The notes beneath the pieces were generated by a model. It was not told the origin of the DNA and ran no database searches. It saw nothing but the letters and a program-made list of their open reading frames with translations. Both the position numbers and the translations under genes were made by a program. A stretch of DNA of 64,000 bases from Parvibaculum sp. (GTDB lineage: Bacteria > Pseudomonadota > Alphaproteobacteria > Parvibaculales > Parvibaculaceae). Positions 46,514-50,817 of the stretch are shown here, piece by piece. The DNA is taken from contig JAUSMV010000030.1 in NCBI GenBank assembly GCA_030645235.1, positions 248,001 through 312,000 of the forward strand. Reading direction: 5' to 3'. Positions within the stretch are counted from its first letter, which is position 1. Every line of letters begins with the position of its first letter.

Positions 46514-47710
46514 TCAGAGATTCAAGATTCGTTTGGCGATGATGTTCTTCTGAATCTCATTGGACCCGCCATAGATCGACTGCGCCCGCGCACCGAAGTA
46601 AGCCGCGACGCTCGGGGCGGCAGATGCGGGAATAGCGAAATTATCGGAGCCGTCGGGCACAACCGAGTCCGGAAAGGCCGGTTGCGCATAGGGTCCGAAG
46701 GCTTCGGCCCCCAGCTCCGTGATGTCCTGCGCAAGCTCCGTCGCAATGACTTTCAGGATCGAGGACTCTTCGCCGGGCGCGCCGCCATCGGCCACCGAGG
46801 CGAGTACGCGCAGCACTGTCAGTTCCAGCGCATCAAGCCGGGCTTCCAATGCGGCGAGCTTGGCCGCAAATGCGGCATCATCAATGAGGCTCGCGCCGTC
46901 CGCGCCGGTCTTCATCGCGGTCGCGCGAATGTTGCGCAATTGCTTCCGCTTACCCGCCACATGCGCATAGGACGTGCGCTCATGGCCAAGCAGATAATTG
47001 GCATAGGTCCAGCCCTTGCCCTCTTCACCGATCCGGTTTTTCTGCGGCACGCGCACATCGACGAAATCAACGGCATTGAGCGAATGCTTGCCGTCAATCG
47101 TGATGATCGGGCGCACGGTGATACCGGGTGTTTTCATATCGATGCAGAGGAAGGTGATCCCCTCCTGCTTCTTGCCGGAATTGTCTGTGCGCAAGAGACA
47201 GAAAATCCAGTCGGCATGTTGCGCAAGGCTCGTCCAGATTTTTGTACCGTTGACGATGTAATCATCGCCATCAGGTTCGGCCTTCGATTGCAGCGAGGCG
47301 AGATCTGAGCCTGACTCCGGCTCCGAGTATCCTTGCGCCCAGAATGTCGTGCTGTTCAAAATACCGGGCAACCACTCTGCCTTTTGCGCGTCACTGCCGA
47401 ATGTGTAGATCACGGGTCCGACATAGAGCAATCCCATCGGCACGACGTTCAATGCGCCTGCGCGTTCCAGTTCCTCATCGAAAATATATTTCTGGTTCGA
47501 CGTCCAGCCGGTGCCGCCCGCTTCTTTGGGCCAGTTGACGGCGACCCAGCCTTTGCTGTCGAGCGCGCGTTCCGAACGCTGATAATCCGCCTTTGACGGC
47601 GAATGACCTTTCGCCATTTTGGCGATCAGGTCTTGCGGATACTCATGCTCAAAGAAGTGCCGCACTTCCATGCGGAATTCCTGGTCCGCACGCGAAAAAG
47701 AAAAGTCCAT
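46514..47710 (-). CDS. Acyl-CoA dehydrogenase family protein
   Basis: This 398-residue FAD enzyme catalyses alpha,beta-dehydrogenation of acyl-CoAs. The N-terminal helical domain begins MDFSFSRADQEFRMEV. The middle beta-domain holds the FAD signature FWAQGYSEPESGSDLASL and WTSLAQHADWIFCL. The C-terminal end carries QSIYGGSNEIQKNIIAKRIL. The residue that aligns with the catalytic Glu of medium-chain enzymes (Y-E-G-T) is Gly here, so the base is probably elsewhere, as in isovaleryl-type and several steroid-related members. ATG 47710 has GGAG close upstream. It lies 62 bp after the GOLPH3-MFS gene. Confidence 0.92.
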   Translation of the reverse strand: MDFSFSRADQEFRMEVRHFFEHEYPQDLIAKMAKGHSPSKADYQRSERALDSKGWVAVNWPKEAGGTGWTSNQKYIFDEELERAGALNVVPMGLLYVGPVIYTFGSDAQKAEWLPGILNSTTFWAQGYSEPESGSDLASLQSKAEPDGDDYIVNGTKIWTSLAQHADWIFCLLRTDNSGKKQEGITFLCIDMKTPGITVRPIITIDGKHSLNAVDFVDVRVPQKNRIGEEGKGWTYANYLLGHERTSYAHVAGKRKQLRNIRATAMKTGADGASLIDDAAFAAKLAALEARLDALELTVLRVLASVADGGAPGEESSILKVIATELAQDITELGAEAFGPYAQPAFPDSVVPDGSDNFAIPASAAPSVAAYFGARAQSIYGGSNEIQKNIIAKRILNL

Positions 47711-47772
47711 AGTCTCCACCCCAATCAAAATTTCTTTGGGGGTTTATAGCAGACAAGCCGATGCCTTTGCGC

Positions 47773-49653
47773 TTACGAATTTGCTTTTTCATGAGGGCCG
47801 CGGATGGAGGCCATAAAAAACGAGATCACCCCTGCGGCAGCGAGATAAAAAGCGGGCGACAGCACGTTTTCTGTTTCTGAAATCAGAAGCACGGCCACCA
47901 CGGGCACGGTGCCGCCGAAGATCGTCAGGGCCAGATTGTAGCCGACTGAAAGGCCGGAACAGCGCACATGCTTGGGGAAGGCTTCCACCATGAAAGCAGG
48001 GCTTGCGCCGGTGAAGCATGAGAGGAAAAGCACAAAGCCGAGTTGCCCCGCCAGAATAGAGGGAACCGTGCCTAGGCTCATCAGCCAGAAGAGCGGCCAC
48101 GCAAAAATCGCCATACCCGCCGTGCCGATCAGCAGCATGGGCCTGCGCCCGATATGGTCGGACAGAATACCCGACAGGGGCGTCATCACCATCAGCATGA
48201 AGAGCGCCACCGAGTTCAGCGCCAGAGCTTCTGCCTGCGGGATACCCGCCACCATGTTGAGCCATGTCGTCGCATAGACGAAGCAGAGATAGAAACCGAT
48301 GGCATTGACGAGATTGAGGCCGATCACGCGCAGAATGGTTCTCCATTGCGTCTGGAATGCCTCGACGATAGGCGCTTTGCGGGCGGCTTCGGCGTCGAGC
48401 ACGACATCTTCCGGCGGCAGACGGCGGCGGATGAAATAGACGATAATGCCGATCACCATGCCGAGGATAAAGGCGATACGCCAACCCCAGACGGCTGACA
48501 TTTCCGGCGAGAGGATGCTGGTGATCGTCGCGCCGATGGCGGAGCCGAGCAACAATCCGCCAAAGGCTCCGAAAGGTGCGAAACTGCCGACGCGCCCGCG
48601 CCGTTTGGGTTGCGCTTCTTCAACCAGCAACACCATCGACGTTGTGTATTCGCCGCCGACCGCGAGGCCTTGCGCGAGACGCAGCAGAATAAGAATGATC
48701 GGCGCGGCCACGCCGATCTGCGCATAGGTCGGCAGCAGGCCCATGAGGAATGTCGGCACGACCATCAGCACAACGGAGGCGATGACGGCAAAGCGCCGCC
48801 CCATCCGGTCGCCGATATGCCCGAACATCACGCCGCCCAGCGGTCGCGCGAAAAAGCCCACGGCGAAAACGCTGAACGAGGCGAGCAGCGATGTCGATGG
48901 ATTGTCAGACGGGAAAAACTGCGAGCCGATGGCAGCGGCGAAAAAACCATAGACGCCGAAGTCGTACCACTCCACCACATTGCCCGCGAGACCGGCGAGC
49001 ACCGTGCGCCTCTCGGCTTGCTTGAGTTCGACATTCATCGTCTGCGCTGTCTGCGCGATGATGCCGCCGATCAGGTCCATCCGCACGAGTTGCGCAATGC
49101 GCGGGCGCACTTCCCTGAGAGACGACGGCGACAGGATGCGCTCGAACACACCACAGGCGTCTGCGAGCGCGACCAGACAAATATCGGCAGGGTCCGGCAA
49201 TTCATCATTGAACAGCAGCGTCAGAATACGCCGCTTGGCTTCCTGCCGTTCCGTCCCGCCGCTGGTCGGATAGCGCCGCCCCTTCATCACCCACATATAG
49301 GTGCGGTCTTCCTGACGCAGCACACCCTGATTTATGAGCGAGGCCAGCGCCCCGTCGCGGATGAAGGACGCATCCTTGGCAAAGCGGCTGATCCAGCCGC
49401 GCGCATCAAGCGGCACGGGTTCTTTGACAATTTCGGCAAGCACGGCGTCGGGCACTTTCGCGCCGGTCGGTGCCGCGTCACTCACCCAAAGCTGATGCAG
49501 GTCGCTGTCGATCCGGCCCTTGAGCGCGAGGTCCATCAGCACCGCGCCGGCCAGTCCGCAATTCAGTTGCGTATCAGGAATACTATCAAACTCGCCGCCC
49601 TCATCTTCGAGCGTCAGCAACAAAAATTCTTCAACCAGTCCCAACTGAGCCAT
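47773..49653 (-). CDS. GOLPH3/GPP34-like domain fused to MFS (MHS-type) transporter
   Basis: A single uninterrupted frame of 626 residues. Residues 1–205 resemble the GOLPH3/VPS74 (GPP34) fold: LVEEFLLLTLEDEGGEF, then CGLAGAVLMDLALKGRI, SDAAPTG…LDEAL-like VLAEIVK, DGALASLINQGVL, and ALADACGVFERIL. From about residue 213 a complete 12-span MFS protein follows, opening with the MHS-family GNVVEWYDFGVYGFFA and holding GHIGDRMGRR. An internal ATG at 49038 would give a normal transporter but has no ribosome site, supporting a true fusion. GGGGG precedes ATG 49653. GOLPH3 proteins bind phosphoinositides and membrane-protein tails. Transport substrate is likely a small carboxylate or betaine (family-level inference). 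Confidence 0.85.
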   Translation of the reverse strand: MAQLGLVEEFLLLTLEDEGGEFDSIPDTQLNCGLAGAVLMDLALKGRIDSDLHQLWVSDAAPTGAKVPDAVLAEIVKEPVPLDARGWISRFAKDASFIRDGALASLINQGVLRQEDRTYMWVMKGRRYPTSGGTERQEAKRRILTLLFNDELPDPADICLVALADACGVFERILSPSSLREVRPRIAQLVRMDLIGGIIAQTAQTMNVELKQAERRTVLAGLAGNVVEWYDFGVYGFFAAAIGSQFFPSDNPSTSLLASFSVFAVGFFARPLGGVMFGHIGDRMGRRFAVIASVVLMVVPTFLMGLLPTYAQIGVAAPIILILLRLAQGLAVGGEYTTSMVLLVEEAQPKRRGRVGSFAPFGAFGGLLLGSAIGATITSILSPEMSAVWGWRIAFILGMVIGIIVYFIRRRLPPEDVVLDAEAARKAPIVEAFQTQWRTILRVIGLNLVNAIGFYLCFVYATTWLNMVAGIPQAEALALNSVALFMLMVMTPLSGILSDHIGRRPMLLIGTAGMAIFAWPLFWLMSLGTVPSILAGQLGFVLFLSCFTGASPAFMVEAFPKHVRCSGLSVGYNLALTIFGGTVPVVAVLLISETENVLSPAFYLAAAGVISFFMASIRGPHEKANS

Positions 49654-49735
49654 GCGAATCCCCCCCGCCCGGATACGCTCAGCATAGAGAAAATCACGGC
49701 CTCACAAAAGCCTTCAGGCAGACGGATGCCAATCT

Positions 49736-50620
49736 TCAGACTTCGGGATGTCTGTGTGTGCCATCAAGGGTCAGCAGGTCGCCATAGAGGTCCACGCGGC
49801 GGTCGCGGAAGACGCCCCACTCGATCCGTGTGCGGCGGTTCGCTTCAAGGTCAAATGTATGGGTCAGCACCGCATCTTCGGTCTCGCCGGCTTCGGCCAC
49901 TTTCGCGCCCGTATTGTCGGCAATGAAGGACGAGCCGTAAAAGGTGATCTCGCAGCTGCGGCCCACTTCGCGCCCGATGCGGTTCGATGCCACCACCGGC
50001 GTCAGGTTCGCCGCCGCATGGCCCTGCATGGTCCGCTGCCAATGATCGCGCGAATGGATCTTCGGATTATGCGGTTCGGAACCGATCGCGGTCGGATAGC
50101 AGATAATATCCGCCCCCTTCAGGGCCAGCAGGCGGGCGGCTTCGGGAAACCACTGGTCCCAGCAGACCGCCGCGCCGATGCGCCCGACCTTGGTGTTCCA
50201 GACCTGGAGCCCCGTATCGCCCGGCGAGAAATAATATTTCTCTCCATAGCCCGGCCCGTCGGGAATATGCGACTTGCGGTAAAGCCCCAGCACCTCGCCG
50301 TCCGTGTCGATCATCACGAGCGTATTAAAGAGCGCCGAATTGGCGCGTTCATAGACCGAGACGGGCAGCACCACGCCGAGGCGCTTGGCCACCTCCCGCA
50401 TTTTTTTGACAGCCGGATTGTCCTCGATAGGCACCGCCAGATGCAACAGGTCCGGCGCCGTGTCCTTGCAGAAATAATGGGTCTCAAAAAGCTCCTGCAA
50501 CAGGATGAAGCGCGCGCCCTTTTCCGCCGCTTTGACGACCATGGCTTCGGCCTTGGCGATATTCTCGTCACGGTCGGTGCTTGCCGCCCATTGAGTCGCG
50601 GCCACGGTGAGTTCGCTCAT
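49736..50620 (-). CDS. aguB: N-carbamoylputrescine amidase
   Basis: The enzyme hydrolyses N-carbamoylputrescine to putrescine, CO2 and ammonia in the agmatine route. The 294-residue nitrilase-fold protein has the catalytic triad Glu43 (LLQELFETHYF), Lys116 (GLYRKSHIP) and Cys153 (AAVCWDQWFPE), and the family-specific IPDGPGYGEKYYFSPGDTG. ATG 50620 is chosen, with AAGGA 8 bases upstream; ATG 50635 and GTG 50638 are in frame. Agmatine deiminase (aguA) is not in the window. It is upstream of the GOLPH3-MFS gene by 82 bp, so transport and polyamine metabolism might be linked, which is speculative. Confidence 0.93.
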   Translation of the reverse strand: MSELTVAATQWAASTDRDENIAKAEAMVVKAAEKGARFILLQELFETHYFCKDTAPDLLHLAVPIEDNPAVKKMREVAKRLGVVLPVSVYERANSALFNTLVMIDTDGEVLGLYRKSHIPDGPGYGEKYYFSPGDTGLQVWNTKVGRIGAAVCWDQWFPEAARLLALKGADIICYPTAIGSEPHNPKIHSRDHWQRTMQGHAAANLTPVVASNRIGREVGRSCEITFYGSSFIADNTGAKVAEAGETEDAVLTHTFDLEANRRTRIEWGVFRDRRVDLYGDLLTLDGTHRHPEV

Positions 50621-50817
50621 ATTCTGATCCTTCATCACCTCACCCTTTCGGGCGACTGAAACCTGTTCTGGTGTGCCTTAAAGTAACAGTCTCGGCACAA
50701 AATCCCGCCATCGCAACAATAAGTATTTCATCCTCTTTTCTAAGCCCGGAACCAGCGCCAAACTCCATCCAGTCGATTCGCCACCCCGGATTTGCAACAG
50801 ACCCGCCGTGAGGACCC

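Follow-up and report, generated by a model that had tools for sequence, protein, structure and literature searches.

Introduction

The role of GOLPH3-type domains in bacteria is essentially unknown, and in passages of one study of Streptomyces such proteins are stated not to have been previously described in prokaryotes, 218 bacterial species being counted there (PMC12402492). A gene in the window, by which we mean the whole 64,000-nucleotide stretch of Parvibaculum sp. DNA analysed in the current work, appears to place a domain of this family (GPP34) directly in front of a solute carrier. This raises the questions of whether the two parts truly form one protein, how widely such a protein occurs, and what the domain could do for the carrier to which it is attached.

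Results

The fused gene and its two domains

The gene consists of a single frame of 626 codons specifying 626 aa, which opens with ATG and contains zero internal stops (Table 1). A Pfam search assigned residues 6-202 to GPP34 (PF05719) with an E value of 2.4e-37 and a score of 129.4 bits (cut-off 29.1), the match covering profile positions 1-197 of 201, and from there the frame runs unbroken into a complete MHS-like MFS carrier. Membership of the carrier half in the MFS is indicated by a Sugar_tr/MFS_1 match above cut-off (residues 219-571) and by the MFS fold of its model. The NCBIfam model TIGR00883 ('metabolite/H+ symporter') aligns with residues 224-611 over profile positions 1-399 of 400 (E 1e-109) and locates this half in the MHS region of the MFS, but the score of 367.2 bits lies under the curated cut-off of 443.45. 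Both halves of the original description, a GPP34/GOLPH3-like N-terminal domain followed by an intact carrier, were thus upheld, the latter with this reservation as to subfamily.

Table 1. Features of the fused gene and its flanks (positions of the window; all on the minus strand).
Feature	Position	Strand	Remarks
Whole fused gene, GPP34-MHS-like carrier	47773..49653	(-)	626 codons
GPP34 domain, residues 6-202	49048..49638	(-)	PF05719 E 2.4e-37; model pLDDT 85.6; Z 20.1 to GOLPH3
Hydrophobic beta-hairpin region, residues 112-126, invariant W121, then RRYP	49276..49320	(-)	Counterpart of GOLPH3 190-201 hairpin
Junction, modelled as one helix (197-222), GPP34 end to first carrier helix	48988..49065	(-)	0 gaps in 11/11
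MHS-like MFS carrier, residues 223-616	47806..48987	(-)	Pfam, NCBIfam, models
Internal ATG (Met206)	49036..49038	(-)	Met in 2/11 homologues; without SD-like motif
G-rich SD-like run upstream of ATG 49653	49660..49666	(-)	By eye
Upstream neighbour, carbon-nitrogen hydrolase (PF00795)	49736..50638	(-), same strand as fusion	Pfam
Downstream neighbour, acyl-CoA dehydrogenase	46514..47728	(-), same strand	ATG start probably near 47710

Conservation of the fusion

A scan of genome_contigs, which by the description of the tool covers 84,980 species, returned 57 loci, ten of which (L008-L017) align with the query through the junction of GPP34 and carrier at 47-72% identity; as the scan relies on short peptide patterns, ten represents a lower bound. 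All ten fused frames are uninterrupted, and two further fusions (L162 and L163) were encountered in the genome that contains L017, giving 13 fused genes in 11 genomes. Pfam recognised both GPP34 and MFS in each of the 11 aligned fusions as well as in L162 and L163, and the alignment across the junction is free of gaps throughout the 11. In eight pairs the dN/dS of the GPP34 half ranged from 0.07 to 0.31, and that of the carrier from 0.04 to 0.35 in the seven of eight pairs with finite dS, values that are rough for both halves given that dS exceeds 1 in most pairs; pN/pS was below 0.5 for both halves alike in 8/8 pairs. Judged by these ratios, both halves are under purifying selection.

In a tree of 76 GPP34 domains (L092, being short, and L075, a duplicate, were left out) the 13 fused domains form one clade with support of 100/99, the bootstrap not being fully settled. 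In a tree of 55 carriers, obtained by a quick search and with free carriers sampled as relatives of the query, the 13 fused carriers fall on one side of a branch with an SH-aLRT value of 94. Because each half forms a single clade, one fusion event, followed by retention of the fused gene, would be the simplest reading. One genome (G693) carries three distinct GPP34-MFS fusions (L017, L162 and L163) and one stand-alone GPP34 gene. The contig of L011, with which L082 and L108 are grouped, is titled Candidatus Kuenenia stuttgartiensis; its fused frame is the same as that of contig G297:C34, from a genome assigned by the tool to the window's class, and the title looks wrong.

One protein rather than an artefact or two products

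The assembly of the window's genome comprises 86 contigs, which leaves some room for a chimeric join or for the loss of a stop codon. Against this stand the 13 uninterrupted fusions in 11 genomes and the selection seen on both halves in the tested pairs, and since the same fusion with the same gapless junction occurs in independent genomes, chance and chimerism are excluded and the probability of an artefact is negligible. The fusion is accordingly a genuine context for GPP34: neither a missing GPP34 match nor a sequencing-derived stop loss, the two outcomes that would have spoken against the first-pass annotation, was observed.

That annotation had also held that the only internal ATG able to yield a free carrier has no ribosome-binding site nearby. 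The missing motif was borne out, and codons other than ATG could also serve as internal starts. Position 206 is Met only in the window and L008, with no SD-like motif before either; GTG occurs at residue 218 in 5/11 fused proteins, of which only that of the window has an SD-like motif before it, and the TTG at position 206 of L012 is likewise preceded by such a motif. These codons lend some credit to the view that in practice carrier and GPP34 arise as two separate products, through internal initiation or cleavage. Met206 is missing in 9/11, the two motif-bearing starts fall at different residues so that no internal start codon with an SD-like motif is common to two homologues among the 11 fused proteins, and the junction is kept without gaps. 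An internal translation start was rejected on these grounds, and a two-product arrangement is considered highly improbable.

Comparison of the modelled domain with GOLPH3 and Vps74

An AlphaFold2 model of the domain (pLDDT 85.6, pTM 0.84) matched GOLPH3 9qpq with a Z score of 20.1 over 195 residues at 2.8 Å, GOLPH3 3kn1 with Z 18.5 and Vps74 with Z 17.3-18.4, these matches spanning 190-195 residues, and the nearest unrelated fold scored Z 3.9; the predicted structure therefore agrees with the family assignment. The full-length model (pLDDT 81.0, pTM 0.71) matches MFS carriers, to which the carrier half is related by sequence in the PDB only distantly. Residues 197-222 are predicted, from 11 sequences only, as a continuous helix that leads from the end of GPP34 to the carrier's first helix.

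Sections of one paper on GOLPH3 name W81, R90, R171 and R174 as its PtdIns(4)P residues, include D247, D258, D262 and D273 among its client-binding acids, describe acylation of C84, and report simulations in which a hydrophobic hairpin (190-201) enters the bilayer (PMC13408441). With alignment columns read by hand, the four lipid-binding residues correspond to P26, A35, S96 and R99 of the window protein, so that one of four, R174, is conserved; for the acids the count is 0/4, D258 falling in an insertion; C84 aligns with Q29. The hairpin is conserved as (Y/F)(M/L/Q)WV(M/L) in 11/11 fused proteins, is followed shortly by an invariant RRYP, and forms two strands in the model. The idea of phosphoinositide sensing, drawn from the eukaryotic proteins, consequently fared poorly, and a phosphoinositide reading of this domain would be weak. 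Because the hairpin is kept and the ligand residues are mostly lost, a role in membrane contact appears plausible and binding of PtdIns(4)P or of Golgi clients in the known manner does not.

Distribution of GPP34 and an empty site

Of 385 genomes in the Alphaproteobacteria class sample, 29 had a GPP34 match above the cut-off, as had 3 of 299 in a phylum sample containing the window's genome. Within the genus of the window it was found in 4/27 genomes and was fused in two, namely the window's own (G000) and G015. A below-cut-off match in G017 and two partial GPP34 matches in the class sample (G294:C1:645765 and G100:C202) were dropped. Among actinomycetes a match was obtained in 62/148 genomes, 59 of them over the cut-off, and the supposition that GPP34 is mainly actinobacterial is supported by this much higher frequency (59/148 versus 29/385).

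In the sister species G003 (L217:1440-1560, corresponding to window 47710-49736) just 5 nt separate the hydrolase gene from the dehydrogenase gene and no other gene intervenes, an empty site which implies that the fused gene was either gained in the window's lineage or lost in G003. For 21 further genus-mates the hydrolase was absent within the fetched flank of the best dehydrogenase locus. The fusion of G015 sits among genes different from those around the window fusion. Among the neighbours listed, no clade-wide conserved neighbourhood was found: the sharing of genes next to the fusion is confined to two close pairs, L009/L011 and L012/L013, except that a helicase-like frame lies downstream of both L015 and the window fusion, the two being 31% identical. 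This patchy spread suggests horizontal movement of the fusion.

A tblastn search returned four plasmid records in which 80% or more of the query aligned, each at less than 60% identity. The two that were fetched (Caballeronia and Rhodococcus opacus) gave no GPP34 match and were rejected as candidate plasmid-borne fusions, being MHS carriers without the extra domain in which the alignment extends further by chance.

Other proteins carrying an N-terminal GPP34 domain

The class sample contains 47 GPP34 genes (48 rows, two of which represent one gene). By the length left after GPP34, 29 were counted as single-domain and two partial genes were set aside, and 16 possess a C-terminal partner, this being MFS in two, a P450 in six, a membrane domain with four His in three, and a domain characterised by the motif WEWRAFW in five. 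Attachment of GPP34 to varied proteins is thus a wider, hardly studied habit of Alphaproteobacteria. In the GPP34 domain tree the P450 and four-His fusions form one clade each, separate from the MFS clade, and the WEWRAFW rows have long branches and an unsure position.

The GPP34-P450 proteins L101, L102, L103, L104 and L105 are each encoded in one frame of ~700 aa, and these five were confirmed by Pfam; L106 is truncated and matches GPP34 only, its P450 part being unconfirmed. In L097, L098 and L100 the partner is a domain with 4-5 TM segments and four invariant His arranged in two H-x13-H pairs, for which neither a Pfam match nor a PDB sequence match below E 0.2 was obtained; by their spacing, the pairs may ligate a di-heme centre in a cytochrome b-like manner. 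In L084, L088, L090, L092 and L109 GPP34 is followed by a domain of ~190 aa with an invariant WEWRAFW, with no Pfam match and no PDB sequence match below E 0.5.

A GPP34 profile match was present in 34 of 35 actinomycete loci (L149 had none), with no more than 70 aa following the domain in any of them, and no second Pfam family was detected in the ten longest actinomycete GPP34 frames. Long frames that suggested actinomycete fusions reach far upstream of the domain and were taken as 5' extensions in GC-rich DNA.

An RsbW/STAS neighbourhood of stand-alone GPP34 genes

The window's genome holds a second, stand-alone GPP34 paralogue (G000:C55), which adjoins an RsbW-type HATPase_c_2 gene, STAS genes and a Na/Pi-cotransporter-like gene, with a HAMP-SpoIIE phosphatase gene ~4 kb away. 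Genome-wide, the HATPase_c_2 match beside this paralogue is, at 74 bits, the single strong one in a stand-alone frame, the next (28.5 bits) lying inside a 718-aa frame, and the adjoining STAS match is the best of five. Ten stand-alone GPP34 genes were compared, from eight fusion-bearing genomes (G000, G015, G297, G686 and G690-G693) and the genus-mates G006 and G020; their loci are L112, L113, L114, L164-L168, L195 and L212. An RsbW-type gene was present in the fetched locus of all ten, being Pfam-confirmed in five and otherwise resting on local profiles built from eight of the same clusters plus L010, and STAS was present in nine, the tenth lying at a contig end. Some of these loci also hold a Na/Pi-cotransporter-like gene and a frame of ~240 aa without a Pfam match. 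An equivalent Na/Pi-cotransporter-like label for the gene upstream of L163 was dropped, this gene being a Na/H exchanger.

The fusion-bearing genomes G687-G689 gave no stand-alone GPP34 match. In G687, where the fusion is the sole GPP34 match, it lies within the arrangement STAS / GPP34-MFS fusion / RsbW / cNMP-SpoIIE (L010:3513-7625): the STAS gene is divergent and 56% identical to the STAS beside the stand-alone GPP34 of the window's genome, and the RsbW and cNMP-SpoIIE genes are on the strand of the fusion and overlap at ATGA. Such a partner-switching neighbourhood accompanies one of 13 fusions, several of which are on short contigs, and the window fusion is without one. In L014 a STAS stretch occurs inside a nearby 779-aa multi-domain frame only, and an RsbW-like match at L009 was discarded as a HWE histidine kinase.

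Across the class sample, RsbW, STAS or SpoIIE genes were found within ~5 kb, or to the contig end, of 13/29 single-domain versus 0/16 multi-domain GPP34 genes (1/16 with a weak SpoIIE match; Fisher p 0.001 or 0.008), from which it follows that fused copies may mostly have left the RsbW/STAS module. None of 35 actinomycete loci, for which shorter flanks were available, had RsbW, STAS or SpoIIE genes nearby.

Discussion

What the domain could do for the carrier

The preferred reading, advanced tentatively and with a little less than even confidence, is that GPP34 acts as a cytosolic, membrane-facing module which positions, clusters or gates the carrier, the two having been joined by a single event and retained since then as a single polypeptide. 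As the N-terminus of MFS carriers is cytosolic, GPP34 would lie on the inner face of the membrane. The recipient would have been an MHS-like carrier, probably H+-coupled, which gained the domain at this N-terminus on one occasion within Alphaproteobacteria; the domain would touch the bilayer through its hydrophobic hairpin, would be coupled to the carrier through the predicted continuous helix, and would position, cluster or gate the carrier as the state of the membrane or a protein partner dictates. The RsbW/STAS partner-switching module would be the best candidate for such a partner, because stand-alone GPP34 genes of these genomes adjoin one, as does the fusion in one genome; the gene neighbourhoods would be accounted for if a partner switch acted on GPP34.

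Two other arrangements of the same parts deserve consideration. GPP34 might serve as a passive scaffold that oligomerises the carrier or holds its place in the membrane with no regulation of transport, much as GOLPH3 holds Golgi enzymes; such a role would account for the retention of the hydrophobic hairpin and for the occurrence of GPP34 as a movable N-terminal unit in front of unrelated partners, which include membrane proteins, but an integral 12-helix carrier requires no membrane anchor and the link of GPP34 genes to a phosphorylation switch suggests control, so that this reading is judged somewhat unlikely. The flow of information could also be reversed, with the carrier half acting as sensor and GPP34 relaying substrate occupancy to the RsbW/STAS switch as its input rather than its output. 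The position of the L010 fusion between the STAS and RsbW-SpoIIE genes is what such a transceptor would predict, yet this holds for a single fusion out of 13 and the window fusion lies between metabolic genes, which makes a transceptor distinctly less probable than a scaffold.

In a bolder reading, alphaproteobacterial GPP34 could be the output of a sigma-independent RsbW/STAS/SpoIIE partner switch. A kinase and its antagonist would take up GPP34 at the membrane or let it go, and fusion would place a carrier, a P450 or a four-His membrane domain directly under that switch; GOLPH3 would then represent, in eukaryotes, one branch of a membrane-switch module of bacteria. This is a speculative and, on balance, unlikely proposal, ranked slightly above the transceptor.

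The covalent fusion names a client, tying GPP34 to a carrier and, in the sister fusions, to P450s and other domains, which brings the role of GPP34 within reach of standard assays of transport and binding. A further point of attack is the link to RsbW/STAS, which also opens a way to the function that GOLPH3 had ancestrally.

Relation to known systems

Among the matches listed from the open PMC literature no paper on a GPP34/GOLPH3-MFS fusion was found, and most of those listed for 'GPP34' with bacteria deal with a pesticidal protein that shares nothing but the name. Both halves belong to known families; their conserved fusion is new. On the GPP34 side one bacterial counterpart is SCO4440 of Streptomyces, a member of the same Pfam family, which passages of the study cited at the outset describe with a GOLPH3 domain and with synteny to a carboxypeptidase gene (PMC12402492).

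The carrier half resembles the MHS family (TIGR00883, with the models for ProP, TcuC and the shikimate transporter) in its full-length match, but differs in its score under the TIGR00883 cut-off, in its 205-residue N-terminal domain and in forming its own clade. The neighbourhoods of the stand-alone GPP34 genes and of the L010 fusion resemble RsbW/RsbV(STAS)/RsbU partner switching in their HATPase_c_2, STAS and SpoIIE genes, and differ in the presence of GPP34 and in that no sigma factor was found among the neighbours scanned, these being part of the ORFs; STAS-only proteins whose targets are unknown or other than sigma factors are on record in portions of another paper (PMC8256260). With GOLPH3 and Vps74 the domain shares its sequence family, a modelled fold at Z 17-20, the hydrophobic beta-hairpin and a counterpart of R174, and it departs from GOLPH3 in lacking W81, R90, R171, the four client acids, C84 and a segment of ~10 residues before R171. 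Finally, whereas GOLPH3 and Vps74 bind the tails of membrane enzymes, the GPP34 domain of the window is covalently joined to its carrier.
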